Positions 19,301 to 37,127 of a stretch of DNA of 37,127 nucleotides are shown in pieces. Numbering within the stretch: position 1 is the first letter of the stretch; each line of letters starts with the position of its first letter. A program made the translations under genes and the position numbers. Below the pieces are notes generated by a model. That model had not been told where the DNA came from and did no database searches. It worked only from the letters and a program-made list of their open reading frames with translations. Source of the stretch: a virus; IMG/VR virus record IMGVR_UViG_3300035698_010721, positions 1 to 37,127 of that record, one strand, 5' to 3'.

Positions 19301-20208
19301 CACAACACTTTTATTCTTGTATTTTAACTGAATTTGGTTATTTATTTTTAGATAGCAAAAGAGAAGATGTTTTTCTTTTACCTACTCCTGACGGTATTAT
19401 ACAGTCTCTAAGAGCAGGATGGAGTACTTTTTTTAAAAACCATATAGGAAATATAGGAGATAACCCTTTTATAGGAAACGGTTTGTATGCAGGTTACGAT
19501 CAAGAGCATAAAAGAATGTTTTTTGGAAAAAACACAAATAGTGTAGGAAAGTCGTGGTCGCTTTCTTTTAGTTTTTTAACAAAATCGTGGATAGGTTTAC
19601 ATTCCGTACAACCTCAGATAATGATAGATACAAATAATAAATTGTACTCTTTTCCACCAAATTCCCTTTCTCTTTATAAGCATAATAAAGAAATAGGCAC
19701 AAGTACAACAGAAGGTAGAGGTACGGGTTATAACGGTATTAAACATCCTTTATATATAGATTTAGTAATTGCTAAGGGAAGTAAACTGGAATTATTATTA
19801 AATACATTAGGTTGGGAATCTCATATAGTAGACATAGCAAATAATGAGCTTTACGATAAAACTTTCACAAGTGTTACAGTTCGTTCTACTTACTCTACTA
19901 CAGGTAGAGTTTTACTTACTAAAAATACTAGTATAGGAGATTTAAATAACACTGTTAGAATTATAGATGGTGTTTGGTTTTTTGATGAATTAAGAGATAC
20001 TGTAATTGATCCTAATATAAAAATAGTTAATTCTCTTATTGATCTTTATGAGTTAAATAACACTAATATAGAAAATAGGTCTTGGATGGACAAATCCCCT
20101 ATACGTGGAAAATATTTTATAGTTCGTTTGGAATATGATAACGAAGATGGTAATTTAATATATCTCAGAGAATTTCTTTCTGATGTCGAACAGTCTCAAT
20201 TTTTATAA
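16324..20208 (+). CDS. Tail stabilization protein, P22 gp10-like (tail hub/muzzle component)
   Basis: The 1,294-aa, beta-rich protein belongs to the crAss-like tail stabilization family, which caps the tail tube. Landmarks are the N-terminal block EGLEALPNGTLP-like segment, RVKRLTQLNDQLLGADVESELEIDFQ (near residues 295-320), GYRISYAKRDSANKTVIGTSILQ (near 512-535, family 'GY.i.yakR...n..iig'), the segment QGWGNDRLLIHHEDALFITR (about 938-957), and AGYDQEHKRMFFGKNTNSVGKSWSLSFSFLTKSWIG (near 1057-1092), where repeated beta hairpins with W and G are typical of a propeller-like fold. There is no membrane segment. Much longer than P22 gp10 (about 470 aa), as usual in crAss-like phages. The start is 5 nt after the Ttub stop. 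Confidence 0.82.
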   Translation: MKIKGSNIDINPANLKGEEYAAFLYNALIDEQLDIIKNEKGLEALPNGTLPASSIIVGITTLTKYIIVLYLTSEGNNIIATYDTDTDSLEQRVNRTDLEFSSSSTNAIIAKFNNQEEIIIVFAADNSFPKHINLNLALTSDSLSSYNLFPQVSFPRFSNITVQDFGGSLRTGTYFVAVQGVTNEGTQTNYSQLSRAIRVVTGGAGDNFYSFVGGAKDSSTSKSISIVLSNLDTTYSNLRVSIVKVINGVVSAQFIKTVEVREANTTLIITGSEAGVEDIPLEDIVIKTPTYKRVKRLTQLNDQLLGADVESELEIDFQSAINTHISLQWTSRKLEIVKSDLGINNNYKKFDIPRGFAHFEIYAFYIQLELLGGSFSQAFVIPARIVTSAEKITSTAATTEGMTIDGSVAPLAFQVEDTSSNIGSWFDSAIGESRAFGNFGAWENANETYPTNFPNYGGDAVRHHRFPSLRSMQIYYGSTYGTKHLDALGIKANGVQNAIASLTLEEQAQVVGYRISYAKRDSANKTVIGTSILQAAHGQASESNSIFSGGGNWGVVNAGSQSDPLIPRKNWVRTMSFDMLLDEPSLDGLYMRNEMLLTVAKLDEVTKSVPPTGQEGQISTSDERYNGWFYWNQSSFDFGTGDITDLDNQWGKISNFASRHADIATSALAANPDVLRRVIKGYYMPKNSELLDGAITIQNKFAEKAVLFNIHQTDRGFPELTWEASGNRFFYDNNNANYLNTTNTVEKTYLTAIMRLATNMYLGFESQTLVPVGDTQIATDDGELINGGDVYVSLMSYITNGQRSKAEGEDIDGIRNIKMFLTEGEHNANYRYSDPSDIETFFFPNKVDFADDSWLAALTGQEEPNKLLYNKDLSEVNLYESIPIYNRQKTYLTKFPFRIIRGGKANRSVDVENSWRTFLANDFYDTVKNKGKITNLQGWGNDRLLIHHEDALFITRDKAKLQTDVLAVTLGSGDLFEFEPAERNSSKSGYAGTQHFYSCILTEFGYLFLDSKREDVFLLPTPDGIIQSLRAGWSTFFKNHIGNIGDNPFIGNGLYAGYDQEHKRMFFGKNTNSVGKSWSLSFSFLTKSWIGLHSVQPQIMIDTNNKLYSFPPNSLSLYKHNKEIGTSTTEGRGTGYNGIKHPLYIDLVIAKGSKLELLLNTLGWESHIVDIANNELYDKTFTSVTVRSTYSTTGRVLLTKNTSIGDLNNTVRIIDGVWFFDELRDTVIDPNIKIVNSLIDLYELNNTNIENRSWMDKSPIRGKYFIVRLEYDNEDGNLIYLREFLSDVEQSQFL

Positions 20209-20209
20209 T

Positions 20210-21787
20210 ATGAAAACTAATAAAAGAAAATTATTAAAATTAAGTAATGGTATTGGTAAATTAGCTATTGACCCTAAGACGGGGTTAGCTTTTACTCCTG
20301 AACAGATGGCTCAAATGCAAGCTATACAGGCTGAAGGTGATGCAGGCGGTGCAGGATTAGGACAAAGTATAGGAGCTGCTGCAAGTGGAGTTGAGGCTAT
20401 TGCAGGCGCAGGAGATACTGAAGATAAAGTTTTAGGGGGAGTTAAAGCTGCTACAGGTGTAGTTACTGCAATTAACCCTATAGCAGGAGGAGTTATGGCT
20501 TTAGGTACTAGTATTTATAGTGGTGTAAAACAAAGACAAGAGGCTAAGACTGCGGAAGCAGATGCTCTAGCTTTAAAAAACACGCAACAACAACAGCAAC
20601 GAGTAGCTGCACTGGATGGAGTTGACTTGCAAGGAGGTTTTGGTAAGTATGGAGGAAAATTAAATTCTATGAAAGAAGGAGGTAGTATAAAACAATTATC
20701 TTCTGAAAATTTTGAAGTTGATGGAGCTACTCACGAAGAGGGAGGAGTTAAAGTTCCTGCATTAGGTGTAGAATTAGAAGATGATGAAACTATAAGTGGT
20801 GATTTTGTTTTTTCTGAAGAATTAGGTTTTGCTGATCAACATAAACCTATAGCTACCGCTTTAGGTAAATTAGAAAAAAAAGCTCCTACAAAATCTGTTA
20901 AAAATACTATAAAGCTTCTACAAGAAAAGGAGGAGGGTTTAAAAGTAGAACAAGAAAATTATAAAGCTGAAAGGGGTATCACTAATTCTCTTACAGAAAT
21001 GGAATTAGGTGGAGGGTTGTTTGATGCTTTAGATACAGTAAAGAATCTTAAAACTGGAGAAATTGAAAAATTTCAAAGAAGATTTGGAACAATTAATAAA
21101 GTAAAAGATCAAACAGTAGGTAGAACTACAAATAAAGCTTTAGGAGAAAATCTAAAAAGCGTAACTGAAGATATTGTACCTTACGCTGATAATGTTGTTA
21201 ATGCTTTTACTGACCTTCCTGACCCTATTGCGCCTTTACAAGAAAGAAATATAAGTTTGAATAAAGTAAATTTTGACGCACAAAGAACAGAAGCTGATAG
21301 ACAACGTGTAGGTTTTAATAGAGGTGTAGATGCGGGAACCTCTGATGCAGGAGTGGCTAACTCTAATAAAGCGGCAGTCTTAACTCAAACAATTAGAGCT
21401 AAAAATTCTATTAATGAAGCAGAATCTAATAGAAATTCTGAAATAGAAAATAAAGAAAAACTTATTAATAGTACTATAGCAACCAGAAACGTTAATAGAA
21501 ATAATGAATTTAATAATCTTAATACAGCTAGAGATATTAAAGAACAATCTTTAGATTCTGATAATTTAGCAAATGCTGTTAATAAATTACAATTAGCTAG
21601 AAGGGATGGGGATTTAATGGACTTAGAAAGTAGAAAAATTGATACTATTCTTAAAAAATACAACGATACAGGAGTAGCTGATAGAAATTTACTAGAAGAA
21701 ATTAAAACGCAATTAGCCTCCTTAACTACAAAAAAATACGGAGGTAAAATCACTTCAAAAAAATTGGGTATTTCTTTAAAAACTTAA
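20210..21787 (+). CDS. Virion cargo protein (crAss-like, ejected-protein candidate)
   Basis: ATG 20210, 1 nt after the previous stop, is preferred to an in-frame ATG 20183 that would overlap the upstream gene by 26 nt; the product is then 525 aa. Near residues 45-100 a glycine/alanine-rich hydrophobic region (LGQSIGAAASGVEAIAG; AINPIAGGVMALGTSIYSGV) could insert in a membrane. Next come GGK/GG loops and the crAss-like block HEEGGVKVPALGVELEDDET...FVFSEELGFADQHKP (about 172-217). The C-terminal half is a long charged coiled coil. Proteins with this block precede the virion RNA polymerase in crAss-like genomes and are thought to be capsid cargo; the exact role is unknown. Confidence 0.7.
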   Translation: MKTNKRKLLKLSNGIGKLAIDPKTGLAFTPEQMAQMQAIQAEGDAGGAGLGQSIGAAASGVEAIAGAGDTEDKVLGGVKAATGVVTAINPIAGGVMALGTSIYSGVKQRQEAKTAEADALALKNTQQQQQRVAALDGVDLQGGFGKYGGKLNSMKEGGSIKQLSSENFEVDGATHEEGGVKVPALGVELEDDETISGDFVFSEELGFADQHKPIATALGKLEKKAPTKSVKNTIKLLQEKEEGLKVEQENYKAERGITNSLTEMELGGGLFDALDTVKNLKTGEIEKFQRRFGTINKVKDQTVGRTTNKALGENLKSVTEDIVPYADNVVNAFTDLPDPIAPLQERNISLNKVNFDAQRTEADRQRVGFNRGVDAGTSDAGVANSNKAAVLTQTIRAKNSINEAESNRNSEIENKEKLINSTIATRNVNRNNEFNNLNTARDIKEQSLDSDNLANAVNKLQLARRDGDLMDLESRKIDTILKKYNDTGVADRNLLEEIKTQLASLTTKKYGGKITSKKLGISLKT

Positions 21788-21799
21788 ATTACAAATTCT

Positions 21800-21807
21800 T
21801 ATATTTG
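21800..21807 (+). promoter_or_regulatory. Candidate Bacteroidetes -7 promoter element before cargo/RNA polymerase genes
   Basis: TATATTTG, an exact TAnnTTTG match, lies in the 37-nt gap before ATG 21825. Transcription would start about 21811-21814, giving a leader of roughly 11-14 nt. The nearest upstream TTG is too far (33 nt) to be a -33 element. It could drive the 651-aa cargo gene and the giant RNA polymerase gene together. Confidence 0.5.
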
Positions 21808-21824
21808 ACTAAACCAGTTGTAAC

Positions 21825-23780
21825 ATGAGCGTAGATTTATTCAATAATAGTACACGAGCTAATTCACAGTATGTTTCTAAATTTGTAGGCTCTACTCTGA
21901 AAGAATTAGACGAAACTGCGGAGGTACTTGACGAACGTTATCGTCAAAATCTTTCTGATTTTACACAATTAGATTCTATTGCATCTCAGATGGATGTTCG
22001 AGATGCTGACAAAGACATCAAAGAAGGTTTGATGGAGAATATCAAATCCACTATTGATAACGTAGCAGGCAGTAAAGAGGGCAATTTTGAAAATGCTACA
22101 GGTACATTAAGCCAACTTACAAGAAATTTTTTAGGAGATGAAGCTAGACAAGCTGCTGTTTTTAATAGACAGGAAGAGCTTAGAGCTAATAAGTTAAAAG
22201 AAGAGTACGGAGCTAATGCTTTGGACTTTAATCCTGCACTAGCTAATGCTCCTACAATTGATCCTGAAACAGGAAAAATAAAAAGATATAATGCCGCAGT
22301 AGAAAAAAAATTAGAGTATCGTCCAGTAAAAGAAAAGATTTTTGATGATATGGTAGCAGACGCTTCTCAAGGTAAATTAGGAGCTTCAGGTATTGTAGGT
22401 CTGCTTTCCCAATCTACTTTTATGGGAATAAGTGATAATAAAGTTAAAGAGCAGTGGGAAAGGTCTTTTGAGGGTTATAAACAAACTGCTGAATATGATC
22501 AAGAGTTTAGAAAGCTCACGGAAATTGACGATTTTACTGATGAAATAGCAGAAGAGTCTATTAAAGATTCTATACTTGCTGTAGGTAGAGAAAAAGTTTT
22601 TAATAGAACAGGAGAAAACTATCAAACTGATGCTATGGGAATAGCTTTAGCTAAACAAGGTTTAGAGCAAGATAGAAATAATATATTACAAACTGTTAAC
22701 ACTCCCGCATTACGTAATCCTTTATTAGGAGAAAACCCCTTACAATCTTTTAAATTTGATGAAAATTCTGGTTTAGTTATACCTTCTTCAGTAGAGAGTT
22801 TTTCTTCTAACGAAAATGGAGAAAAACTATATACGGTTTATAAAGATAATAAAGGTAAAGTGGTAGATAAAGCTCTTGCTACTCACCCAAAACAAGGGGG
22901 AGTTAAAAAAGATTATACTCAAGAGGTAGTAACTGCAAATCAGTTAGAACAGCAAGTCGATAATCAAATAAAAGTTATAAGACAAGAACAACTTTCTTAT
23001 AATAACGATTTAAGCGGAATGACTGATGAAGAAGTTTATACTGCTTATAATAAAGCTTGGGAAAATCTTAAACTTGTAGATGGTCTTGCTCCAGTTTTAG
23101 GAAACGATGTATCTAAAGCTTTAACTAATCGTTTTTTTGGAGCTAACGGAGTTTCAGGAATTTCAGGAAGAAATGTTTTTGTTTTAGATAATCAAGGGGA
23201 AGGTATGCAAGGAGGAACACCTGAGCAACTAGCTGATGCTTTAAATTTAACAGCAGAAGAGTTAGAAGAAAAACTTAAAACTGCACAAATTGCTAACGCT
23301 GTTGGAGTTAATCCTTTAGGTGTTGCGGGTTATACAGCTACAATTTCTAATGATGATGGAAAACCTACTAACATTTTAATACAAGGTAGTAATGAGATGC
23401 AAGAAGTATTTAAACGTTCTCAAGATTTAGCAAAAGCTGCTTATACAGGAAAAAGAGCTACGCATTTAGGTATAGTTGATGGAATGTATGTAAAGTATGA
23501 AGCTCTCCCTATACTTAATCCTAGAACTCAAAAATTTGAAGTTAACATAACCGCTAAAGAGGTACAAATAGATCAGGAGGGAAGAATTATGTACGATTCT
23601 GAAACACAAGAAGCTCTTACACAAGGGGAGCAAGTTCCTTTAGGTATGAGAGGGCAAAATTTAATTTATGAAAAAAGCTTAGAAAATTTACAACGTGAAG
23701 ACCTTGCTACTTTTATTAATGCAGGTTTAGTTGGAGGTAATGTAGGTGCTACTAAAAATTCTTCAGTAGAAGCGAAATAA
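21825..23780 (+). CDS. Virion cargo protein upstream of the virion RNA polymerase
   Basis: The 651-aa protein is acidic, mostly helical in its first half (residues about 20-260, with EVLDERYRQNLSDFTQLDSI and DIKEGLMENIKSTIDN), and more mixed beyond residue 300 (VESFSSNENGEKLYTVYKDN, VEVNITAKEVQIDQEGRIMY-like strands). It has no signal peptide. A protein with this layout lies directly upstream of the RNA polymerase in crAss-like phages and is found in virions, so co-packaging and co-ejection with the polymerase is the likely role. The stop is 4 nt before the ATG of the giant gene, supporting coupled synthesis. The identity is from gene order and general architecture; no motif of known function is seen. 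Confidence 0.68.
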   Translation: MSVDLFNNSTRANSQYVSKFVGSTLKELDETAEVLDERYRQNLSDFTQLDSIASQMDVRDADKDIKEGLMENIKSTIDNVAGSKEGNFENATGTLSQLTRNFLGDEARQAAVFNRQEELRANKLKEEYGANALDFNPALANAPTIDPETGKIKRYNAAVEKKLEYRPVKEKIFDDMVADASQGKLGASGIVGLLSQSTFMGISDNKVKEQWERSFEGYKQTAEYDQEFRKLTEIDDFTDEIAEESIKDSILAVGREKVFNRTGENYQTDAMGIALAKQGLEQDRNNILQTVNTPALRNPLLGENPLQSFKFDENSGLVIPSSVESFSSNENGEKLYTVYKDNKGKVVDKALATHPKQGGVKKDYTQEVVTANQLEQQVDNQIKVIRQEQLSYNNDLSGMTDEEVYTAYNKAWENLKLVDGLAPVLGNDVSKALTNRFFGANGVSGISGRNVFVLDNQGEGMQGGTPEQLADALNLTAEELEEKLKTAQIANAVGVNPLGVAGYTATISNDDGKPTNILIQGSNEMQEVFKRSQDLAKAAYTGKRATHLGIVDGMYVKYEALPILNPRTQKFEVNITAKEVQIDQEGRIMYDSETQEALTQGEQVPLGMRGQNLIYEKSLENLQREDLATFINAGLVGGNVGATKNSSVEAK

Positions 23781-23784: not shown

Positions 23785-26700
23785 ATGGGAAAACGACAAA
23801 AAATTAATCCTATTATATATGATACTAAACAACACGGATTTACAAGCGGTGAATCACAAGATGGAGGTTTAGGTAATATAGAATTAGGCTCTTACGACTT
23901 TGGAGTTAATAGGAACAATATTGATAATTTAGAAACTATAAGAGCTTTTAATCAATCTTCCTTAAGTAAATTTGGTAATCAAGCAGCTAAAACTTTACCT
24001 GCTATTGGGTTAGGTATTGTGGAAAATGCAGGTTATTTAGGTGAATTATTATTTGATTGGGGCGATAAAAAAGATTATACAAACGCTTTAACCGAATTTG
24101 CAAAAGATAAAAGAGAAAAATTAGATGAAGCTTTACCTGTAAATAGGAAAGATAGGGGTGCGGTTTTTGATTTAGATGATCCTGCATGGTGGATAGAACA
24201 TGGTGGAGGTTTAGTAGAGTCTATTGGAGAATTTTTAGTTACGGGTGCAGGAGTAGGTTCAGCTTTAGGTAAAGTCGCTACAGGCACAGCTAAAACTCTT
24301 AGAGCAGGCTTAATAGCAGAAAAAATGTTACAAGGTACTGCTGCTGTAGGCACTTCAGCTTCTCTAGCATACGTTGAAGGGGCTATGAGCGGTTCTCAAG
24401 TCTATAAAGAAGTTTTTGCTGATCAGATGCGAATACACGGTAATAAAGATACCGCAAATCAATTAGCTTCTGAAGCTGCTTCTACTACAGTTAAAACAAA
24501 CACCTTAATCAATACTGCTTTAAATTTAACTTCTGTAATGCCTTTATTTAAAAGTAAAGGGTTTTTAAAAAATAATACGGCATTAAATAGAGGGAATTTA
24601 AAAAAAGAAGAGTATTTAAAAAAATTAACAAATTTACCTGTAGATAATCCTAATAAAGCTTTACGTAGGATTTTAGCTTTTGAGGCTTTACAAGAGGGTG
24701 CGGAAGAACAAGTTAATTTATTTGCAGAAGGTGAAGGTAGAATAGTAGGAGGACTTAAGAAAAAAGAAGGTTCTGCTATGGATAGATTTTTAGATGCAGC
24801 TTTATCGGAAGAGGGCGCATTAAATTTTATTTTGGGTGCAGTAGGGGGTGTAGGTCAAACTTTAGGTACACAATTTGCACCTATTAAAAAAACTACAGAT
24901 AAAGACGGTAAAAGAGAGTTTATTTCTATTAGAGAACAAACAAAAAGAAATAAAGAAGTAGGAGTAGCTAATTATATAGACAGTGTTAAAAAAGATTTTG
25001 CAACTTTAGATACTCTACAAAAAGAGCTAAACGCTGCTGTTTTAGAAGGTGACGAAAGTAAAATTGCTTTAACAAAAGAAAAATTATTTAATATAGGTAC
25101 AATTAATAGTATTAGACAAGGTTTTGGTGAAGCTTTTATACAAGATTTTGAAGAAATTGCAGCTACAGATAACACTATTCAGTCTTTAGAAAAAGACGGT
25201 AGAACTGAAGCAATGCGAAAAGGTTATACTGACTCTATAACAGAAAATTCTTATAAAAATGAAGCTTCTGATAGGGCAAGAACACTTGCACAACTTACTA
25301 GAGAGTATAAAAATATAGAAGAGCAGTTTTCTGATTTAAATTCCATATTTGCTCAAGAAGGTTTTAGAAAACACTTAGCTGCTGAAAGTTATAAAAAATC
25401 TACAGAAGAGATAAATAAGATTATTGAAGAAATAAGACCGCAATTTGAAGGTAATTTTTCTTTATATGAAAGCAGAGTATTAGAACTTGAAGCTAAAAAA
25501 AGAGGACTAAAAAACGCTTTAAGTACTATTAATGATGAAAATTATAAAGATGTTGCTAATACTCTTACGGGAGTAACTTCTGCTGAAGGTCAAGCTAAGT
25601 TAACTAAAAGTATTACACAACAGCTTCTTGCGGTTCAAGAGGAAATTAAAGCAGAAAAAGAAGTTTATAAAAATAAACCTACTAGTGAGGCGGATTTATC
25701 TATTAGTGATTTATTTAAAGAAGCTACTTTCTATTTTGAAACAATTACTCCTTTGGAAGGACAAAGGGCTTTATTTGCCGAAATGGGTAAAGAAATAGGT
25801 AAAGATTATAGAAAACTTTACACTAGAGAAGGTAAAAAAGCTTTTACAGACAGTGTAGGTAAAGAAGTCGAAAAAGTAAATAAGGATTTTCAAAAAAAAT
25901 TGGAAGATAAGTTAGCTAAAGATGCTAAAAAAGAAGAAAAAGTAGCTAAAACTTTAGCTAAAGCAAAATTAGAAGCTGAAAAGAAACAAAAAGATACCGA
26001 AACAGCAGTTAAAACTTTAGAAAAAGAAGCTCCTTCCAGTAATTTTGGTAAAACTAAAGTAGAAGAAGTAGAAGAAGAAGAAAATGTTAGTAATTTTGGT
26101 AAAACTAAAGATCAAATTGAGGCAGACAACGCTAAAAAAGATTCTGATCCCAAGACTAATTCTTCTTCTCTAGAAGCTGATTTAAATAATGAAGACCCTA
26201 AGTTAGATACAGGATTAGAAGGCTATCAAGGTCTTACTAACAAAGAAAGAGAAGAAGAGAAAGAAGCCTTAGATACTCTTATAGAAGAAAATAATAACAC
26301 TAATGAAGGTTTACTTATTAATGCCGCTCCTTCTATTGCTTATTTAGCTCAAGACTATGAAGAAGATGAAGATGGTATAAGAAGTACTTCTAATACAATT
26401 AATGATAATACTAATTTAGATGTATTTAGACCTAATGGTATAATAGTAGGAGATAAAATAACACTTGCTATTGATACGGAAAATGAAGCTTACGAAGAGT
26501 TTAAAGAGGATGCAGAACGTGTACCTATTGTTATTAAAAAGGGTGATAAGATTATAGGTTACGTACATACTATAGATTATATAAACAGAAATAGAGTTGT
26601 TGAGGTAACTTATGACTCTGAAGGCAATCCTACGGATAATTTAGAATTACAAAAAACAAATCTTAAAAAATTAAGAGAATTTTTATACACTTCTAAAACT

Positions 26701-29700
26701 TTTGATAGTATAATAACTAAAAAAACTTTAGGTGTTTTAAATAGAGATTTTAAAGGAGGACGTTATAACGTTAATGAAGCTATGCCTTCGGGAGTTAGTT
26801 TTGCTTTAGGTAAAAACGGAAACCTTTATGTTAACAAAGATGATAGTTATCCTAACCCTTTAGTTAATAAACAAGAGTTTTTAAATGGTCGTTTATATGC
26901 TATACTTCCAACTCCTGTAGAGGGAAAAGAAATGGGCGTACCTTTAGACATTAAAACTTTATCTAAATCTTATGTAGATTCTATGAAAGCAGGTTTAATG
27001 TTATTTTTAGCTGAAGACGATCAAATAAGCGAATCTGGTCAAATAGCTATAAATACTTTAAATACTAAATTTGAAATAGACATTAGGACTTTTGCGGGTT
27101 TAAGAAGTTTCTTTAACAACTTTGTTTACTCTGATGGAAGATTAAATGATACAGAATTTTTAACTGAAGTCTCGGAAAACGTTAAACCTGATGATAAAAA
27201 ATATTTAGAAGTTTTAGGTAATGGTATATTAATAGCTGAAACAAGCAAAAAACCCCTTTCTATTACTAAAAATTCACCTCCTGCACAAGCAGAAGCTTTA
27301 TTAGCTGCTTTAGAAAAACATCTAGCGGGAATGTATATGAATATTGACTTAAATCAAATTAAAAACAATAGACCTATTAAACTTCCTTTATTAAAAGTAG
27401 ATACTGAAACAGGTGAATACGTTACAGAGGAAGAAAGTTACGAATCTTATAATGACTTTATAGCTGCACATAGTTTAACTAATATTATAGCTGCTCCTTT
27501 AAATGATACAGAAGTAACTTACTTCGTACAGCCTACAATGGAGTTTGCTACACCTCAAGATGGTACAGCTCCTGAAATACAACCTAAAATAGTAATTGCT
27601 AAAGAAAATAAGCCTGAAAGTAAAATAACTTTATCAGGCTCTTTAACTAACAGTAAAGTAACAGGAAAAAATAGTGATACTGTAGAAAGTGACGATCTTG
27701 CTGAAAATTTATTAGGTAAACAAAATCAAGTTCAATATAATCTTAAATCAATTACTCTATTAGCTTCTGCTAAAGCGGAACAAGTGTTTATTAAGGGAGA
27801 AAAAGCAGGTTGGGATTTAAATAAAATTTTAACAGAACTTCAAATACCTAAAGAACAAAAGCAAATTATACTAGATAAAAATATTACTGATAGAGAAGAA
27901 ATAATTACATCTTTATTAGCTGATAATAGTTTTGTTGTTGAGGTTAATACTGCTAAAGAAAAACTTAAAACTGGTAATTTGTTATTTGGAGATGATATTA
28001 GAGATGAAAATTTTAAATATGATAGTTATGATAATGATACTTTTTGGAAAGAAAACATAGAAACTGGTGAAATTATTGACTTAACTAAAGAGGAATATGA
28101 AAAGGGTTTACAAAGCATAAATGACAACCTTAATGATAACCCAACCCAGCATTACTCTAACCTAACAGTTTCAGGTGGTACTAACTATACAGAAAATGAA
28201 ATAGCTACACCTGCTATTATACCTAATATTAAAGGTCATGCAGAATTTAGTACTGATAATGGTATAGGTTGGTTCAGAAGTGATGAAGTACAAGGTAAAA
28301 ATTTAAGAGATGAAGATACTTCTATAGAAGGTATATTTGGTAAAGATAATTTTGAAGGAACCAAAACTCGTAGAGTACTAGAAGTACAATCTGATTTATT
28401 TCAAAAAGGTAGGGATAAAAAAGATTTAATATCTTCTGAAAATAAAAAACTTACAATTGGACAGTCTAGTGAAACAGAATTTACTGTTGAAACTTATGAA
28501 GGAGAAAGACTATCGTTCCACGCATCTAAAGAAGACGCTAATAAAGAATTAGCTAGGTTACAATCTTTACCTAATCCAACTAACAACTTTCTACAACTAT
28601 TAAACAAAAAAGGTAATTGGGTTAATTTCTTTATACAATCTATAGTACAAGATAGTGCTAAGAAAGGTTATGAAAAAGTATTATTTCCTACAGGTGAAAC
28701 TGCTGCTAAAGTAGAAGGGCATCAAACTATTGCTGATGAAATTAAAAGTTTAGATACTGAAATAAATGAATTAAAGAAAGGTATAAAAAGTTTTAAACTT
28801 AATGATATAACACACTACTATCTACAAAAAGATAAAAGTGTAGAACCGGGAGAACAACCTAGCATAGAGAAAGACGGTTGGTACGCAGATCCAAAAGATG
28901 TAGGAGTAGACATTTTTCAATTTGAAACAATTCCAGACAATTTAAAAAATTCTATAACAGAAATTGATAGTGCTGTTAAGGGTAAGTTACAAAAGTTAGA
29001 AGCCCAAAAACAAGAGATGAAATCTCAAGGTATTGAAAAACTTAAACCTATTGAAGCTTTCTATTCTAATAGAGTAACTAATATACTTAATAAATTATAT
29101 GACGTTAATGAAGTTACTGATGAATTTGGTAATACTTGGAATGAAATAAATATAGAAGCCTCTTCTATAAGTGCAATAAGTTTAGATTTGCCTGAAGCTT
29201 TACGTTTTGAAAACATACTAGTTACGGGTTATAGTTCTTATACTCAAAATGAGGTTATAGACACTATTAATAGTTACATTCTTAGTAAAATAAGAGATAA
29301 AGGAGAGGCGGGATATCTTGTAGAATTTAATAATTTTATTAATGAAATAAAAGGTATAGACTTAGCAAGATTTCAAAACATTGTAAAAAATCAAAAAGAC
29401 TTTAGAAGGTTAGCTCAAGAAAAATTACAAAGATTAGGTATAGTTAAGAAAAGAAGACTTAATGAAAGAGAAGTAGATTCTGCTATATTATCTTTATCGG
29501 AATTAGATATTTCTGACAATCTACAATGGGAAGACGAGTGGGTATTTAAATTAAATCCAAAAAATACAGCAGGCACACAATTAAAACAATTTTTTGCTTT
29601 TATTGCTGATACTGAATATGATCCTACTAAAGGTACATATTTAGTAAAAGGTACGCATTTAGGTATAGAAAATATACCTAAATATATGTCTTTAGATACT

Positions 29701-32700
29701 GTTTGGGAAGGTGTACTTTCTGTTACTACTGATACTGCCCCTGTATGGGAAGATATTAGAAAAAAACTAGAAGAAGCTTCTCCTTCTAAACCTTATTTAC
29801 ATAGTATCTTAAATGAAATTGATAATTATACAGGAAAAGATAAACAAAGACTTATTAATCAATTTGTAGTTGCTGCCACTAAAACACATAATGGTTATGA
29901 GTTTCTTAAAGTTAGAAAAAATAAAAATGGTACAGTTAACTTTTTTCCTTCAGACTCAAATAGAGGTAATTTAACTAAAACTATTCAAGAGTTTTGGTTA
30001 CAAAATTTTAAACAAACTTTTTTAGTTACAGTTAATAATGAAGGCGATCTTATCATAAATAAAAAAGAAGCAACTAAAATGATAGCTAGAATTAATAATT
30101 CTGATTTATCATTAGACTCTTCTTTAAAAATTTTAGAAAAACTTGGTATTGATGTTAGTCCTGAAGTACATAAAAGTCTTTTTAGGATTAATAAAAAAGA
30201 AAGCTTAAGAAGACAGTACGAAGATAAAGATGGTTTATTCTTTTTAATTAAAGACGGTTTAAGTAATTTAAAAGAAAATGATCTTTTAGAAATTAATCAC
30301 CCTTTAGCAAATAATAGCGGTTTTAAAGCTTTAGCTAGATTGGAAGCTAAATATAATACAAGTACACATTCTAATTCTTTAAGAAATATAAACAATGATT
30401 TAGTTTATGCTTATGGACTAAATAAATTTTTAACTTCCAGAACAAGAGAACTTCTTACTACTAATAAAGCTAAAGAGTTATCTTTAGTTTCTTTTAATAG
30501 TACTTATTTTCAAGACGAGGAAGGTAAAATTCCTTTATACGAAAACTGGTTATACTCTTTACAAAATGATACCTACTTTAAAGAACATTTTAAAGTTTCT
30601 CCTATAGACGGTATGAGAGAAGGTAGAAAAAAAGGAGTATCTATGACAGATATGTACGAAAAAGATCAAGAAGTTTTTAGACTTGCTGCTTATCATAATA
30701 ATTTAAACGGTAGAAAGACTTCTCGTTTAAGTAAATTTGTATACAGTATACCAGGAAAAGCTACTTCTTATCTAGTAACTGCACCTAGACATGACACTTC
30801 TATTGTTATAGATAAAGTTTCATCTAAAGTAACTTTTAATAAATCAAGTTTAGACGCTTTATTTAGTGTAGCTAATTCGGAATTTAAAAGAATTAGAAGA
30901 TTTCAAGAATTACAAGATCAAGGAACTGCCCCTACTACTAAAGGTTACAAAGACGGAGCAAATAAATTTTTCTTTTATGATTTTTTAAATAAAGACTCTT
31001 CTCCTGAAATTTGGAAAGGAGGAAGACTTTTAAGTTACACCTCTACAGTAGAAATAGAAGGTAAACAAGTAGCTGTAGGAAGTATTATAAGAGAAAAAAT
31101 AGCAGAAAATTTTAATCAAGAAATTAAAAGTAAAATAGAGCATTGGAATAAGCTTAATATTATAGGTAAAGACGCTAAAAATAAAAACATATTTAATAAT
31201 GTAGATTCTAATTTTCTTTCAGGAATGGTAGTTGCAAAAACTTCTGCTGCCGATTTTCAAAAGCAATCAATATGGATGGCTACAGATTTTGTAGTAAATA
31301 CTTATTTAGCTAATTTTAATATGCATCAAGCTTTTATTGGCGATCCTGCATTATTTTATAAAAAAGATATTCAAAACACTTGGAGTAACGTAGGTAAACG
31401 TTTGGCTAAAGATATTGCATCAGGCGAAGATTTAGCTCTTTCCAACATTAACGAAGAATTTGTAAGAGTTTATGCTTCTGATAGATTAGTAAATGCTTTA
31501 AATATAGCGGAATTAAGAAACAGAATAAAAGATTTAGCTAGTGATTATGAAGCTATAGAAGGTACGGATGCTGTAGAGTTAACAACATTAAAAGAACATT
31601 TAACCGTTCTTTATCAACAGGGTAGACTTGATACAGATGTATACAATAGAATACTAAATAAGATTAAAACAGAAGAAAACAGTTTAAAGTTAGATCAAAA
31701 AGATTTAGGTATTATTTTACAACCTATGAAACCCGTATATTCTGATAGTGTAGTAGACACCGAAGAAGATATGGTTAGAGTAGAATATATAAAATCTGCA
31801 AGTTTTCCTTTAATTCCCGAACTTACTAAAGGTACAGATTTAGATAATATTAGAATAGCTATGGAAACTTTAGAAAAAACTAAAGAACTTCCAGTAAGAT
31901 TAGCTTTTACTTCTGCTACAAAATTAGGAGGTAGAGAATTTGCTACACTTTTTAATAAAGACGGTAAAACTTCTAAAGATTTAGACCTTACTCCTTTTAG
32001 TATTAATGTACCTCGAAGAGGTTTAAGAATACAACAAGATATTCCATACGATCCAAGTAAAGATAATATATTAAGAGGTTCTCAAATATCTAAACTTTTG
32101 TTTGATAGTATTTTAAATTTAGATGGGTTTTCTTTTGATGGTAAAAAAATTACAGCTAAAGCCTTAAAAGAAAAGTTTTTAGAAGCTAATTATGATCTTT
32201 CTGCTAAAGCGTTAAATGAGCTTAATGAAGATATCACAACAAACGGAGATTTAGACATAAAAAAACTTCGTGGCATTTTACAAGAAGAAGCTATAGATAG
32301 GGATTATAATATTAATGATTTATTAATGCTCTCTTTAGATAGAGCTACAGGTAAATTTGTTATGCCTTTTTGGAGTAGTCCTAGTTCTGATAAATATGAA
32401 TCTTTAGTTACTTCATTGTATACAAATAGAGTAATTAAACAAAAACTTTCAGGTAGAAGTCTAGTATTGGTAAGTGAAGAAGGTTTTGGGGGAAAAAGTG
32501 AAGGTATAGTTTATACTAGTTCTTACGATTCTGAAATAGGATTAAAGCCTATGAGAGTGGAAGACGGTGAAGTCAAAGCTGCACAAGTTATAGTACCACA
32601 AAGGTTTAAAGATAGTCAAGGTGCTCTTTTGGATATAAAGAAATATATTGATAAAACAACTGGTTTATTGGATGTCAATAAAGTTCCAAAAAAGATGTTA

Positions 32701-35700
32701 GAAGCCATAGGGTTTAGGATTCCTACACAGGGTCATAACTCTATGGCTTACCTTGAAATAGTAGGTTTTTTGCCTGAAATTTATCAAAATACAATTATTA
32801 CTCCTAGAAATTTTATTATTCAAATGGGGTCAGATTTTGATGTAGATAAATTATATATTTATGAGCCTGAATATACTGTAGATAATGAAACAGTATTAAA
32901 AGCTAAATCAACTAATAACGACATTATAGATATGCATAAAAGCGTATTAACTAATGAATCCGTTTTTAACAAAATAATTAGACCTTTAGGTTTTGGTTTA
33001 TTGGAAGGAGGTAAAGGTAAAACTAATCTTGCTATAGAAATAGATAATGCTCGAAAAGCTAGATTAGGTGGAGTTAAACCTCTTAACGGTTCTCAAACTT
33101 TTTGGACTCAAAAATATTTAGAATCTTTAGAAGGTAGAGCGGGTATAGGTGTTAAATCTTTAGATTCTACATTTAATTCTATACTACAGGGTACAGAACT
33201 TAGTTTAAAAGGTAATAACTTTATTTCCCCTTTTCTTGTATTTGGAGAAGATAATGGTAATGCTATAAAATTAACAGATTTAGGTAAAGGGGAGACTTGG
33301 GACGGAATTAGAACTATAAATGAAGTTATAGCAGCTTACCAATCTGCTGCTGTAGATAATGAAAAAAATCCTATATTAGGTAAAATTAATTCCAATTCTG
33401 TAACTTTTCCAGTAGAAAGAATACTAGTTCAATTAGGTTTTACTGAAGATTTTGTAGCTTATTTTACTAGTCAAGATATATTAGTAGAATACGCTAAAGA
33501 AGTTAATAATTTAAGAGGCAGTAGTGCTGAAAAAGGAGTAACAGAAGAAACTATTTATAATAAGTTAAAATCTAAATATGTTAATCTTCTTAGAGATAAA
33601 GTTTCCAAAGAAGCTTTTAAATCCGCACAACTTAAAGATGCTGATTTTCCTTTAACTAGGGAGCAAATGAAAGGTAGTATACAAAAAGGAGTAGAATATA
33701 GAAACAAAAAAATAACTTATGAAGAAATACAATTATTAGCTTTAGAAAAATTTAGAAAAGCTGAAATGTATGGCAAAGCTTTAGGTAAAATACAAAGAGC
33801 AGTAAACAGTGATAGTAAGGGTTTAGGTAAAAATTTCTTTGAAGTTGCTGATAAGGTAGTAGATATTCAAAAAGTTATTTATAATAATAAATTAATAGAT
33901 AATGCTTCTGAATTATTGTCAGGTGTTGAAGGGGATTCCTTTTTCTCTAAAAGCATGAATGATATTGCCACCCAATTAGGGCTTATGTCGGCTTACACTA
34001 CCTTTTTGTCAGAAGAGGATAGTTTGTTTCCTTACGAAAAAAGAACAGTGCAGGAGAGTTTAGAACAACTTGAATGGGTATTTGGTAGAGAGCTTTCAAC
34101 TGACAATAAAAAACAAATATGGAACAGTTTAAAATCTTATGTATTTTCTCAAAATAATAATGGGTTATTTGAAGATGCTTCTAAGGAAAGAAGAAAATTG
34201 TTTTTTGATACTAAAGATAATCAATCTCTAGCTACTAGAATTAAAAATTTTGCTAAAACTGTACAAGGTAAAAATAATCCTTTTATAAAAAGACTTAGTT
34301 TTGAGTTTAATCCTAAAAACAGCAATAAACCTGCATTAATTAAATACAATTCTTCGGCAGGAGAAAATTTAGACGAAATTCCAATATATCAAGGATTTAA
34401 AGATTTGTTTAGAGACAGTGCTACTAAACAATTGGGTTTAGATTTAGTTAAATATACTTATCTAAATGGGGGACAGCAACAAGCTAATGAATTTACTAAG
34501 TATGTACCTTTTGAAGAATTAGTTAATTTAGGATTTACTGCAAGCTTAAATAAAGTTAATTTTAATAATCCCGCTTTAGTGGAAACTGTAGTTAATGCAG
34601 ATTTAAATAAATTTACATTACAGTATGTGCAACATAATCCTTATTTAACACAAGAAGTAAATAGTAAATTTACTAAAAAAATAGGAAATTCTTATATCTT
34701 ACCTTCTCCTATGGCTAATGATAAGAATTTTTCAACTATTACAGAAGATCAAGTTGCAAACGGTACGGCTTCTCCTGAATATCCTCCTATAATTAGATTA
34801 ACTTCTCCTGAAGGTGAGATTTTAGTAATGTACAATGAAACTTTAGAAGACGATAGTAGAGTTTATAAACTTATAAGTACACTTAATGAAAGATTTTTTA
34901 ATCAATATGATGCTAATTTAGCTATTGACGCAGTGGCTACTAACCTAACTGCACCTCAAAATTTAACTACACCTAAATCAGAAAAGGTAGTTGAAAAGAT
35001 AACAGTTAAGGTAGCAACAAAATTACCACAAGCTAAAACCACTCCTATAGTTAATAAAACAGTAGATGAAGAAAAAAATCTTTTAGTAGATACTAATGTT
35101 GCTACTACTATTGACAACATTTTAGCTACAAGTATTATACCTCAACATGTAGAATTAGCTAAATTTTTAAAAGCTACAAATTTATTAACTAACTGGACTA
35201 TATCTGAAGATCAGAATATAACAGGTAAGGGTAAAGCTTATACGACTTTAGGCAAAGCGGGTAGAATATCATATAATACTTTAAAATTTAAAAATCCTAC
35301 TGATATTCAGGAATTAGAGCGTTTAATTTTACACGAATCTTTACACGCTGTTACTGTAGGTTCTTTACTTAATCCTCAGAATGCTAAACAAGAACAGGCT
35401 ATAGAATCTCTTAAGAATCTTAGAACTAATATTAGAACTAAGGTAATTAACGGAGAAGTAGCGGGAATGAATGCAGCAGAACTTCAAGAGTTTGAGCAAC
35501 TTTTTGCTAAAAACTTTAAAAGTATGGAAGATATTGCAAGGCTTTCAGAACTTAAAAGTAAGTATTATGGTATAGCCGATCTTAAAGGAATAAATAATAC
35601 TAATTTAGTAATTTCTGAATTTATTACAGGAATACTAACAGAAAAAGGTTTACAGGAAGCAATGAACACTATTCCTTACGATTCTACTAAATCCGTATTA

Positions 35701-37127
35701 GAACGTTTTAAAGAGATTTTAAATAATATTTTAGAAGTGTTAGGAGTTACACCTAATACAAGTTTAAGTAAAGCAATTGAAGATATTCTTTTCTTAGTAG
35801 ACAATGCAGAAGTCGATCCTACTACGATAAGTCAAGAGACAATTAATAGTATAGTACAAGCACAAAATGAAGATTTATCTGAAGCTCAAAGGGAAGAAGA
35901 AAAGTATAAAAAAGTAACTCAAATACTTAAAAGTAGAATAAGTATTGTAGAAAATGCTATCAATAAAGCTAAATTAAATAAAGATTTAGTTAAAGTAAGG
36001 CAATTGGAAGCTAGAAAAGAAGAGCTTGAAAATGATGTTAAAGCTTTAGACGATGAATCTGTACTATCTACCGTATTACAAATAGGAAAAAACGAATTAA
36101 ATAGAGTTAGAAACATTTTAGCAAAACCTCAAGTAAGTACTTCTGATTTAGATTTTGTACTAAGAACTTTAACTTCATGGAAAGATGCTTCTGAGTTTTT
36201 ACTATCTGATTTAGATTTAGATCAAGGGGGTAAAGCGGTTGAATTAATTGCAGCTTTAGAAACTGAAGCCAAGCAATTAAGACGTAAATGGGAAACTATC
36301 ACTAAAGATCATTTATTTGAAATAACTAAAAAAGAATCCTCTGCTAGTGATTTAATTAAAGAAGAAGTGGTAGGTGCTCAAGAGGATATAAGTAGTTTTA
36401 CTTCTTTAATGCTAGATTTATCTAGATCAGATAATGTTATATTAGGAGTTGTAGATAAGTTTATAAGAAAAGCAAACAATTCCGCAAATGCCGAGGCTCA
36501 AATTGTTCAAAAACAAGTAGAAGAGTATGTAGTAAGGTTAAACACTAAAGAGGCTTTTAAAAAAGATAAATTTTATGTTTTTGCTCAAGAAGATCAAGAT
36601 GGAAAATTAACTGGAAATTTAGTAAGTGAATATAATCAAGATTACTATGATACTAGAAAAAAACTATTAAATACCGCTAGAAAAGCAAAAAATAGTAAAA
36701 GTTGGACTAATTTTTTTAATTGGAAAAAAGAAAATCACACTATTGTAGATATACGTAAATTATATAAAGAAACTACTGAAGGTACATTAGAGTTTGTAAA
36801 TAATTCTTCTTATATATTAGAGTTAGAAAAAGAAATAGGAGCAGCAAAAGTTGTTAAAGAGTTAGAAAAACAAGAACAAAAAATAGCTAACTATAATGCA
36901 GATTTATTATCTAAAGAGGATTCAGTAAAAGACGAACCTGACGGTTTTCGGACTTTTGAAGAATGGAAAGTTAAACATAATCCTGTATTTTATATGCAAA
37001 ACATTTTAGACAACAATTACGTTTCTACTAAAATAAACGGAAAATTTGTTAAAAATGAAGGGTACAATTATTCTATAGAAGTTCCTAAATCTAAATGGAA
37101 CGATTCTAAGTATAGTAAAATTCAAGA
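23785..37127 (+). CDS. Giant virion RNA polymerase polyprotein (partial, 3' end outside window)
   Basis: One frame runs from ATG 23785 to the window end: 13,343 nt, 4,447 codons, no stop (translated by hand). Order: residues 1-365, glycine-rich with hydrophobic stretches; 380-775, charged coiled coil and acidic linker; 776-1450, unrecognised mixed region; 1453-1791, polyvalent-protein module; 1792-2480, unrecognised; about 2480-3760, RNA polymerase core with DFDVD (3017-3021); about 3800-3960, zincin-like domain with HESLH (3850-3854); 3960-4447, helical region with further crAss-like blocks. crAss-like virion RNA polymerases (phage phi14:2 gp66, about 2,180 aa) are ejected into the host to transcribe early genes. 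Here the polymerase is part of a much larger chain. The true length is unknown. Confidence 0.9.
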   Translation, partial: MGKRQKINPIIYDTKQHGFTSGESQDGGLGNIELGSYDFGVNRNNIDNLETIRAFNQSSLSKFGNQAAKTLPAIGLGIVENAGYLGELLFDWGDKKDYTNALTEFAKDKREKLDEALPVNRKDRGAVFDLDDPAWWIEHGGGLVESIGEFLVTGAGVGSALGKVATGTAKTLRAGLIAEKMLQGTAAVGTSASLAYVEGAMSGSQVYKEVFADQMRIHGNKDTANQLASEAASTTVKTNTLINTALNLTSVMPLFKSKGFLKNNTALNRGNLKKEEYLKKLTNLPVDNPNKALRRILAFEALQEGAEEQVNLFAEGEGRIVGGLKKKEGSAMDRFLDAALSEEGALNFILGAVGGVGQTLGTQFAPIKKTTDKDGKREFISIREQTKRNKEVGVANYIDSVKKDFATLDTLQKELNAAVLEGDESKIALTKEKLFNIGTINSIRQGFGEAFIQDFEEIAATDNTIQSLEKDGRTEAMRKGYTDSITENSYKNEASDRARTLAQLTREYKNIEEQFSDLNSIFAQEGFRKHLAAESYKKSTEEINKIIEEIRPQFEGNFSLYESRVLELEAKKRGLKNALSTINDENYKDVANTLTGVTSAEGQAKLTKSITQQLLAVQEEIKAEKEVYKNKPTSEADLSISDLFKEATFYFETITPLEGQRALFAEMGKEIGKDYRKLYTREGKKAFTDSVGKEVEKVNKDFQKKLEDKLAKDAKKEEKVAKTLAKAKLEAEKKQKDTETAVKTLEKEAPSSNFGKTKVEEVEEEENVSNFGKTKDQIEADNAKKDSDPKTNSSSLEADLNNEDPKLDTGLEGYQGLTNKEREEEKEALDTLIEENNNTNEGLLINAAPSIAYLAQDYEEDEDGIRSTSNTINDNTNLDVFRPNGIIVGDKITLAIDTENEAYEEFKEDAERVPIVIKKGDKIIGYVHTIDYINRNRVVEVTYDSEGNPTDNLELQKTNLKKLREFLYTSKTFDSIITKKTLGVLNRDFKGGRYNVNEAMPSGVSFALGKNGNLYVNKDDSYPNPLVNKQEFLNGRLYAILPTPVEGKEMGVPLDIKTLSKSYVDSMKAGLMLFLAEDDQISESGQIAINTLNTKFEIDIRTFAGLRSFFNNFVYSDGRLNDTEFLTEVSENVKPDDKKYLEVLGNGILIAETSKKPLSITKNSPPAQAEALLAALEKHLAGMYMNIDLNQIKNNRPIKLPLLKVDTETGEYVTEEESYESYNDFIAAHSLTNIIAAPLNDTEVTYFVQPTMEFATPQDGTAPEIQPKIVIAKENKPESKITLSGSLTNSKVTGKNSDTVESDDLAENLLGKQNQVQYNLKSITLLASAKAEQVFIKGEKAGWDLNKILTELQIPKEQKQIILDKNITDREEIITSLLADNSFVVEVNTAKEKLKTGNLLFGDDIRDENFKYDSYDNDTFWKENIETGEIIDLTKEEYEKGLQSINDNLNDNPTQHYSNLTVSGGTNYTENEIATPAIIPNIKGHAEFSTDNGIGWFRSDEVQGKNLRDEDTSIEGIFGKDNFEGTKTRRVLEVQSDLFQKGRDKKDLISSENKKLTIGQSSETEFTVETYEGERLSFHASKEDANKELARLQSLPNPTNNFLQLLNKKGNWVNFFIQSIVQDSAKKGYEKVLFPTGETAAKVEGHQTIADEIKSLDTEINELKKGIKSFKLNDITHYYLQKDKSVEPGEQPSIEKDGWYADPKDVGVDIFQFETIPDNLKNSITEIDSAVKGKLQKLEAQKQEMKSQGIEKLKPIEAFYSNRVTNILNKLYDVNEVTDEFGNTWNEINIEASSISAISLDLPEALRFENILVTGYSSYTQNEVIDTINSYILSKIRDKGEAGYLVEFNNFINEIKGIDLARFQNIVKNQKDFRRLAQEKLQRLGIVKKRRLNEREVDSAILSLSELDISDNLQWEDEWVFKLNPKNTAGTQLKQFFAFIADTEYDPTKGTYLVKGTHLGIENIPKYMSLDTVWEGVLSVTTDTAPVWEDIRKKLEEASPSKPYLHSILNEIDNYTGKDKQRLINQFVVAATKTHNGYEFLKVRKNKNGTVNFFPSDSNRGNLTKTIQEFWLQNFKQTFLVTVNNEGDLIINKKEATKMIARINNSDLSLDSSLKILEKLGIDVSPEVHKSLFRINKKESLRRQYEDKDGLFFLIKDGLSNLKENDLLEINHPLANNSGFKALARLEAKYNTSTHSNSLRNINNDLVYAYGLNKFLTSRTRELLTTNKAKELSLVSFNSTYFQDEEGKIPLYENWLYSLQNDTYFKEHFKVSPIDGMREGRKKGVSMTDMYEKDQEVFRLAAYHNNLNGRKTSRLSKFVYSIPGKATSYLVTAPRHDTSIVIDKVSSKVTFNKSSLDALFSVANSEFKRIRRFQELQDQGTAPTTKGYKDGANKFFFYDFLNKDSSPEIWKGGRLLSYTSTVEIEGKQVAVGSIIREKIAENFNQEIKSKIEHWNKLNIIGKDAKNKNIFNNVDSNFLSGMVVAKTSAADFQKQSIWMATDFVVNTYLANFNMHQAFIGDPALFYKKDIQNTWSNVGKRLAKDIASGEDLALSNINEEFVRVYASDRLVNALNIAELRNRIKDLASDYEAIEGTDAVELTTLKEHLTVLYQQGRLDTDVYNRILNKIKTEENSLKLDQKDLGIILQPMKPVYSDSVVDTEEDMVRVEYIKSASFPLIPELTKGTDLDNIRIAMETLEKTKELPVRLAFTSATKLGGREFATLFNKDGKTSKDLDLTPFSINVPRRGLRIQQDIPYDPSKDNILRGSQISKLLFDSILNLDGFSFDGKKITAKALKEKFLEANYDLSAKALNELNEDITTNGDLDIKKLRGILQEEAIDRDYNINDLLMLSLDRATGKFVMPFWSSPSSDKYESLVTSLYTNRVIKQKLSGRSLVLVSEEGFGGKSEGIVYTSSYDSEIGLKPMRVEDGEVKAAQVIVPQRFKDSQGALLDIKKYIDKTTGLLDVNKVPKKMLEAIGFRIPTQGHNSMAYLEIVGFLPEIYQNTIITPRNFIIQMGSDFDVDKLYIYEPEYTVDNETVLKAKSTNNDIIDMHKSVLTNESVFNKIIRPLGFGLLEGGKGKTNLAIEIDNARKARLGGVKPLNGSQTFWTQKYLESLEGRAGIGVKSLDSTFNSILQGTELSLKGNNFISPFLVFGEDNGNAIKLTDLGKGETWDGIRTINEVIAAYQSAAVDNEKNPILGKINSNSVTFPVERILVQLGFTEDFVAYFTSQDILVEYAKEVNNLRGSSAEKGVTEETIYNKLKSKYVNLLRDKVSKEAFKSAQLKDADFPLTREQMKGSIQKGVEYRNKKITYEEIQLLALEKFRKAEMYGKALGKIQRAVNSDSKGLGKNFFEVADKVVDIQKVIYNNKLIDNASELLSGVEGDSFFSKSMNDIATQLGLMSAYTTFLSEEDSLFPYEKRTVQESLEQLEWVFGRELSTDNKKQIWNSLKSYVFSQNNNGLFEDASKERRKLFFDTKDNQSLATRIKNFAKTVQGKNNPFIKRLSFEFNPKNSNKPALIKYNSSAGENLDEIPIYQGFKDLFRDSATKQLGLDLVKYTYLNGGQQQANEFTKYVPFEELVNLGFTASLNKVNFNNPALVETVVNADLNKFTLQYVQHNPYLTQEVNSKFTKKIGNSYILPSPMANDKNFSTITEDQVANGTASPEYPPIIRLTSPEGEILVMYNETLEDDSRVYKLISTLNERFFNQYDANLAIDAVATNLTAPQNLTTPKSEKVVEKITVKVATKLPQAKTTPIVNKTVDEEKNLLVDTNVATTIDNILATSIIPQHVELAKFLKATNLLTNWTISEDQNITGKGKAYTTLGKAGRISYNTLKFKNPTDIQELERLILHESLHAVTVGSLLNPQNAKQEQAIESLKNLRTNIRTKVINGEVAGMNAAELQEFEQLFAKNFKSMEDIARLSELKSKYYGIADLKGINNTNLVISEFITGILTEKGLQEAMNTIPYDSTKSVLERFKEILNNILEVLGVTPNTSLSKAIEDILFLVDNAEVDPTTISQETINSIVQAQNEDLSEAQREEEKYKKVTQILKSRISIVENAINKAKLNKDLVKVRQLEARKEELENDVKALDDESVLSTVLQIGKNELNRVRNILAKPQVSTSDLDFVLRTLTSWKDASEFLLSDLDLDQGGKAVELIAALETEAKQLRRKWETITKDHLFEITKKESSASDLIKEEVVGAQEDISSFTSLMLDLSRSDNVILGVVDKFIRKANNSANAEAQIVQKQVEEYVVRLNTKEAFKKDKFYVFAQEDQDGKLTGNLVSEYNQDYYDTRKKLLNTARKAKNSKSWTNFFNWKKENHTIVDIRKLYKETTEGTLEFVNNSSYILELEKEIGAAKVVKELEKQEQKIANYNADLLSKEDSVKDEPDGFRTFEEWKVKHNPVFYMQNILDNNYVSTKINGKFVKNEGYNYSIEVPKSKWNDSKYSKIQ
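28141..29160 (+). other. Polyvalent-protein module inside the giant protein (residues about 1453-1791)
   Basis: The segment begins PTQHYSNLTVSGGTNYTENE (GG-x-NY at 1465-1469), continues with LEVQSDLFQKGR (E1533, Q1535, D1537), then WVNFFIQSIVQDSAKKGYEKVLFPTGET (near 1620-1640), a coiled coil, and FYSNRVTNILNKLYDVNEV plus a W1785 strand. This succession matches the 'PGGxNYxE ... EIQSDxxQ ... A...GyDki.w.tG ... fYd..l' module I know from very large phage and mobile-element polyvalent proteins. Its biochemical activity is not established to my knowledge. Proline codons differ from the flanks (5 of 10 are CCA/CCG inside 28141-28980). Confidence 0.7.
31222..35064 (+). other. Virion RNA polymerase core (residues about 2480-3760)
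   Basis: Conserved crAss-like RNA polymerase blocks appear in order: YLANFNMHQAFIGDPALFYK (ending near 2525), QPMKPVY (2646-2652), SFPLIPELTKG, GFRIPTQGHNSM (2976-2987), the metal-binding GSDFDVDKLYIY with D3017, D3019 and D3021, GRAGIGVKSLDSTF (from 3117), SAAVDNEKNP, and NSDSKGLGKNFF (from 3341). In phi14:2 gp66 the corresponding catalytic triad is DFDID in a single chain carrying both double-psi barrels, related to cellular polymerases and to QDE-1-like RNA-dependent polymerases. All three aspartates are present, so the enzyme is expected to be active. Domain limits are approximate. Confidence 0.88.
35182..35760 (+). other. Zincin-like metallopeptidase domain in the giant protein (residues about 3800-3992)
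   Basis: ERLILHESLHAVT places the HExxH motif at 3850-3854 (H3850, E3851, H3854) in a predicted helix. A downstream helix, LVISEFITGILT, offers E3945 as a third zinc ligand, about 90 residues later, which fits the gluzincin-like HExxH...E layout. It follows the polymerase core directly. Zincin-like domains occur in some phage virion and polyvalent proteins; possible roles are self-processing of the giant chain or cutting of a host or scaffold protein. Activity and substrate are inference. Confidence 0.65.

Follow-up and report, generated by a model that had tools for sequence, protein, structure and literature searches.

A giant gene in a fragment of a crAss-like phage relative probably joins the virion RNA polymerase to its neighboring proteins and a GNAT-like domain

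The giant gene at the 3' end of the analyzed DNA is best explained, with a probability of about 85%, as a fusion of the transcription block that phage phi14:2 encodes as gp67, gp66, and gp65, with a GNAT-like insert between the first and second parts, and its product as an ejected polymerase chain. The modules follow in the order N module, GNAT-like domain, two-barrel RNA polymerase, zincin, and helical C module. At least four modules accompany the virion-type polymerase (N module, GNAT-like domain, zincin, and C module), where the original prediction had called for at least three; the N, zincin, and C modules correspond to neighbors encoded separately in phi14:2 as gp67 and gp65.

Giant fused crAss-like polymerases were already known (PMC7886860, PMC10136315, PMC10770324), and the headline of a giant fusion is therefore not new. 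They are described as a hallmark of crAss-like phages, reaching up to about 6,000 aa (PMC10136315; also PMC10770324), and many relatives carry complete giant ORFs, so the rarity that the prediction implied was not upheld. Beyond the literature found, the original phi14:2 paper lying outside the search, are above all the relocating GNAT-like domain, and also the three-gene fusion of this clade, the counts of junction switches, and the zincin shared with phage N4.

Genomic context and extent of the giant gene

The window, that is, the whole IMG/VR fragment of 37,127 bases, has about 30% G+C, and no tRNA genes were found in it. Its structural block is of the crAss-like type, with every gene on the plus strand in the order terminase, portal, head, ring-like, muzzle-like, and polymerase. 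The terminase large subunit, portal, a 434-aa protein, and the major head protein are encoded at 3433..10787, and the muzzle-like tail protein of 1,294 aa (16324..20208) matched phi14:2 gp71 in blastp (E 7e-13) and was assigned by PHROG as a virion structural protein. Two genes for proteins of 534 and 651 aa (20183..23780, plus strand) lie between muzzle and polymerase, in the position of the crAss001 cargo proteins; blastp gave no significant sequence similarity for either, and they are cargo-like by position only. The Crassvirales-like markers TerL, portal, major head protein, and muzzle were all present (PHROG, tblastn/blastp), and the closest TerL matches include Fipvunavirus, which is placed outside Crassvirales in the taxonomy of the record. 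Judged by these sequence markers, the source is a bacterial virus related to crAss-like phages.

The giant ORF starts with ATG and occupies 23785..37125 on the plus strand, where the 3' end of the contig cuts the gene. It runs without a stop for 4,447 codons, the minimum that had been predicted, and an open run of this length has a chance of about 10^-185 at the base composition of the window. Relatives with a fused C module extend 617 to 717 residues past the equivalent of window residue 4447, so the full chain probably has about 5,060 to 5,160 aa, and about 620 to 720 residues are probably absent from its C-terminal end. No classical transmembrane stretches were found in the chain above the hydropathy cut. 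A 25-base stretch of a ring-like protein gene (15113-15137) was matched at 92% on the opposite strand in the giant gene, within window positions 33000-34000, which is probably a chance match in A+T-rich DNA.

Polymerase core and collinearity with phi14:2

The two-barrel RNA polymerase core, related to phi14:2 gp66 and crAss001 gp50, covers about residues 1812-3637 (29218..34695, plus strand), with sub-blocks CA at residues 2431-3042 and CB at residues 3117-3637. In phmmer, residues 2434-3048 and 3039-3354 matched 6VR4, the structure of phi14:2 gp66, with a whole-sequence E value of 2.3e-35, and the core alignment spans solved gp66 residues 808-1404 and 1486-1771. The catalytic DFDVD is located at residues 3017-3021 (32833..32847, plus strand), as the prediction had placed it, and aligns with DFDID of gp66. 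The comparison made there with phi14:2 was accurate as well: gp66 has 2,180 aa with DFDID at 1361, and both the approximately 1,650 extra residues upstream of the catalytic motif and the more than 650 residues after the core hold. The length of gp67 and the catalytic position in gp66 add up to 3158 (1797 + 1361), close to 3017.

By homology and the DxDxD motif, the core is a crAss-like virion RNA polymerase of the phi14:2 gp66 family, and two double-psi barrels are predicted in it from the alignment to solved gp66. There was no sign of a T7-like single-subunit RNA polymerase: N4 vRNAP was absent from the whole-chain matches, and the two-barrel 6VR4 alone matched the core. A tblastn search returned 138 phage records, Fpv1-type Flavobacterium phages at the top followed by crAss001-like polymerases; a Pfam search with the whole chain gave no match.

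Hold-out profiles were built with the window and uncultured relatives as sole input, all GenBank phages being excluded. Those for the core (CA, E 2.6e-137; CB, E 4e-66) recovered phi14:2 gp66, crAss001 gp50, cr11_1 gp66, and Fpv1 gp33. Over all modules, the profiles recovered gp67/gp47, gp66/gp50, the zincins of gp65 and Fpv1, and gp49/gp34, which argues that a three-gene block became one gene with its order kept. The collinearity with phi14:2 and the place of the giant gene directly after the muzzle and the cargo-position genes also count for the fused block.

N modules, linkers, and C module

The N1 module (residues 46-402; 23920..24990, plus strand) is homologous to the N-terminal part of phi14:2 gp67, crAss001 gp47, and cr11_1 gp65, which its hold-out profile recovered with E values of 1.4e-32, 5e-27, and 4e-54, respectively. 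It contains conserved glycine-rich segments, e.g., ESIGEFLVTG at 145 and LNFILGAVGG at 346. The N2 module (residues 872-1256; 26398..27552, plus strand), to which no known fold was assigned, was found in relatives and shares an ORF with N1 there, also in those whose N protein has its own gene.

Between modules, the chain has low-complexity linkers at about residues 661-811, 3711-3800, and 4021-4110. The first (25765..26217, plus strand) is composed of charged residues to about half and has the lowest entropy in the chain, and the last (35845..36114, plus strand) marks the site where most relatives divide into two genes. The incomplete C module, CT (residues 4048-4447; 35926..37125, plus strand), is mostly helical and related to crAss001 gp49 and Fpv1 gp34, both recovered by the hold-out profile of window residues 4048-4438. 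Unlike the zincin profile, this profile did not reach phi14:2 gp65. Searches of solved structures gave no significant match for the N and C modules, and Pfam and NCBIfam gave none above cut-off for the N, GNAT-like, zincin, and C modules.

Relocating GNAT-like domain

Residues 1303-1805 (27691..29199, plus strand), designated MOB, are conserved in relatives and, judging from a structural model, probably form a GNAT-like domain. The AlphaFold2 model (pLDDT 77.7, pTM 0.69) aligned best in the PDB mainly with GNAT acetyltransferases over model residues 84-498 (Z 7.6-8.6, rmsd 3.5-7.4), a Z near 8 being middling by the structure-comparison tool's own note. Foldseek of the same model against the PDB gave no significant match (E > 0.2). 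Because of the middling Z and the Foldseek result, which on its own is not significant, the assignment is likely, though unproven. Sequence searches of Pfam, NCBIfam, and the PDB yielded no match carrying a function and no significant acetyltransferase match. The best viral structure matches were large uncharacterized phage proteins, some labelled (large) polyvalent protein associated.

MOB occupies at least four different places of the polymerase block among relatives. Segments at the start of a separate C protein (L022, L089-L092, and L101) were 50-58% identical to it, and less close copies were located after the zincin (L015), immediately before the core (L093/L117, L102, L107, and L136), and within the polymerase, after DFDVD and ahead of the next block (L097). 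In viral contigs, 144 copies were confirmed, and the polymerase modules were on the same stretch as MOB in 80 of the 93 fetched loci, the remainder being mostly cut by contig ends. The position of MOB changed at least 8 to 9 times on the polymerase tree. MOB and core identities correlated weakly (Spearman 0.23), which would fit exchange and also unequal rates. An intein was considered and set aside, since MOB is retained at several sites that are not equivalent as well as at the ends of genes.

A structural spacer or packaging tag only, neither enzyme nor injected effector, is a reading of MOB with a chance somewhat below even. It agrees with the sequence searches and Foldseek, both without a significant match, and with a GNAT assignment drawn from one AlphaFold2 model with a middling Z of 8.6. 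Across 66 copies, however, MOB keeps 37 invariant and many near-invariant residues in an otherwise fast-changing chain, and it was retained while it shifted between positions, both of which argue against this reading. A more tentative proposal is that MOB is an acetyltransferase-like effector delivered by the virion, a hitchhiker in the crAss-like polymerase block that was repeatedly moved between slots, since any position in an ejected cargo chain would deliver it with the polymerase. MOB is a candidate, open to experimental test, for a protein-modifying activity that is injected.

Zincin shared with ejected virion proteins

Residues 3825-4006 (35257..35802, plus strand) are a zincin metallopeptidase domain by HExxH and the downstream Glu, with HESLH at 3850-3854 and E3945 as the third ligand, and proteolysis is predicted. 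The ligands were retained in most of the 102 homologous domains (H in 91, E in 100, H in 100, and the third-ligand E in 97). The hold-out profile of the zincin recovered phi14:2 gp65 and Fpv1 gp33.

A zincin profile of 47 copies, searched against solved structures, matched the internal virion protein 9sfn (E 1.5e-13), the tetrameric ejection protein gp48 (8vb2, E 3e-6), and N4 vRNAP (E 2.5e-5). The name and number of gp48 agree with those of the PhiM1 phage ejectosome protein (PMC11440229). These matches place the zincin among the domains that ejected virion proteins of several phage groups carry. It ties crAss-like polymerases to N4 vRNAP and to internal and ejection virion proteins of other short-tailed phages, a link that holds although the crAss-like and N4 polymerase cores differ in fold. 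An alignment of the zincin/C model with N4 gp50 (9pnr, Z 7.8) was not counted; it covered residues 2380-2593 of the N4 chain, whereas the HExxH region lies at 2224-2318 by sequence. The other structure matches of this model were helical bundles with background Z.

In L006 (crAss001 gp47), L073, L075, L078, L083, and L102, a zincin motif (GTxYHEAFH or other HExxH) was located upstream of the polymerase, so the metallopeptidase, too, seems to relocate or to be replaced. A second HExxH, DT[IL]PHE[YF]AHHYI[AS], was present close after the GNAT-like domain in several chains, at 2673 aa in L097, 2179 aa in L102, and 3727 aa in L150.

Comparison with known virion polymerases

In phi14:2, gp67 (1,797 aa), gp66, and gp65 (1,421 aa) are neighboring genes that run in the same direction, and MS/MS recorded the product of each in virions. 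Module order is the same as in the giant chain, and core, DxDxD, zincin, and N module are homologous; phi14:2 differs in having three separate genes and no GNAT-like domain. The closest annotated relative of the core belongs to Flavobacterium phage Fpv1 (Fipvunavirus), whose gp33 (4,401 aa), annotated as virion structural protein only, joins a long N part, polymerase (DYDID 3222), and zincin (HEVIH 4179) in one chain. In contrast to the giant chain, its C module is encoded separately as gp34 (1,596 aa) and the GNAT-like domain is missing; N1 and N2 were not detected in Fpv1 by profile. The opposite fusion, with C joined and N apart, occurs in crAss cr11_1 (Intestiviridae), where gp66 (4,388 aa) combines the polymerase with a gp65/gp49-like C-terminal part and gp65 is a separate N protein with its own zincin.

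N4 vRNAP gp50 (3,500 aa) is likewise a giant ejected chain and shares the zincin with the window chain. Its layout is membrane N-terminal domain, low-complexity linker, RNA polymerase, HExxH domain, and helical C-terminal domain, the last of which autoinhibits, and beads-on-a-string passage through a 35 Å channel was proposed for it (PMC12633501). The N4 core, however, is a T7-like single-subunit RNA polymerase, in contrast to the two-barrel core of the giant chain. Sequence similarity between the N and C modules of N4 and those of the giant chain was undetectable, so the shared layout may be convergent except for the zincin. Thermus phage P23-45 gp96 (5,002 aa) carries a two-barrel virion RNA polymerase in a giant virion protein like the window chain, but there the polymerase is joined to the tape measure of a long-tailed phage (PMC10770324).

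Polyvalent proteins of phages and conjugative elements are chains of many domains, zincin and GNAT among them, that are injected (PMC5512222). The survey that described them is without crAss-like polymerases, and the GNAT-like domain of the giant chain is without a family-library match. Of the polyvalent features, the chain has RNA polymerase and zincin by sequence and the GNAT-like domain by fold only, and its injection is presumed.

Delivery of the chain and possible processing

By analogy, the giant chain is most likely an ejected beads-on-a-string polymerase like N4 vRNAP. Several copies may be packed in the capsid as cargo, as suggested by crAss001, whose three polymerase-associated proteins are carried as virion cargo and have to unfold in part to pass the tail (PMC10172136). 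The chain would leave with its N end leading, passing the tail in a partly unfolded state as beads on flexible linkers, and the N module may anchor it to the ejection channel or the membrane. The polymerase would then refold in the host and transcribe early genes without the host polymerase. The helical C part may regulate the polymerase, as the N4 C-terminal domain does, and once injected, the zincin may act on the chain itself or on a host target.

It is rather unlikely that the chain is instead a polyprotein cut at its linkers by the built-in zincin or a prohead protease, with virions holding separate proteins like those of phi14:2. With its ligands intact and conserved across the 102 domains, the zincin is a candidate cleavage agent for the giant chain, the three linkers would offer places for the cuts, and relatives split near the one at 4021-4110; self-processing by such zincins was proposed for polyvalent proteins, and P1 DdrB is processed before packaging (PMC5512222). 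N4 vRNAP, however, whose zincin is related, is packaged unprocessed (PMC5512222) and provides a precedent for ejection of an uncleaved giant chain (PMC12633501, PMC5512222). The zincin was also retained in phi14:2 gp65, where the proteins are already separate, so cutting the giant chain cannot be its only role. Whole ejection versus processing of giant virion polymerases becomes a comparison between fused and split relatives.

Fusion and separation among relatives

Scanning viral contigs with a single sequence, the C half of the chain, gave no hits, whereas an alignment-based scan around DxDxD gave at least 510 related places, 80 loci of which were fetched. Many of the fetched loci had complete ORFs of 4,000-5,600 aa, and N module, core, zincin, and C module were present in one complete ORF in L016 (5,065 aa), L040 (4,933 aa), L041 (4,799 aa), and L048 (5,005 aa). 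In other relatives, one or both of the N and C junctions were split and the modules stayed adjacent, with gaps of at most 30 nt in 21 of 26 N junctions and 57 of 66 C junctions. The nearest kin of the window, L009 and L011, have the N junction split and the C junction fused.

On a tree of the core region with 105 rows, at least 14 changes of the N junction and at least 7 of the C junction were counted, or at least 11 and at least 3, respectively, at forks with support ≥95 only. L093 was scored as split, since a longer locus of the same contig places the N gene separately upstream. The junctions were gained or lost many times with gene order constant, which makes covalent linkage look optional. 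The fusion is best understood as a nearly neutral covalent linkage of proteins that travel together anyway: one phi14:2 polymerase protein is reported to be active alone in vitro (PMC10136315), and fused forms alternate with split ones among relatives. The crAss-like transcription block appears as beads repeatedly joined and separated by evolution in unchanged order.

An assembly or sequencing artefact that removed a stop between modules, conceivable for a lone metagenome contig when many relatives have a stop at the C junction, is improbable in the extreme given the chance of 4,447 open codons, the complete N-core-zincin-C fusion in four other uncultured relatives, and the agreement of identical or near-identical contig pairs (L038/L039 and L022/L023); a missed stop or frameshift in the window contig is very unlikely because the same architecture appears as complete ORFs in independent assemblies.

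Several relatives showed further irregularities in the giant gene. In L010, the C-module ORF begins in frame right after the stop of a 5,209-aa ORF (boundary at 16654-16655), so that changing a single base, or reading through the stop, would join the two. The giant ORF was broken for about 480-506 nt, about 200 codons before DFDVD, in L014 (9349-9833), L024 (9330-9812), L034 (9379-9872), and L046 (9180-9686); no Rfam family at threshold and no intron was found in these breaks. In L019, the polymerase gene is broken at its DxDxD region by a group I intron (10873-11159; Rfam RF00028, E 1e-22). L150 (296-19441) encodes a 6,381-aa ORF with two polymerase cores, DFDGD at 2334 and DFDID at 5680, which are 27% identical over 493 residues and have the GNAT-like domain between them.
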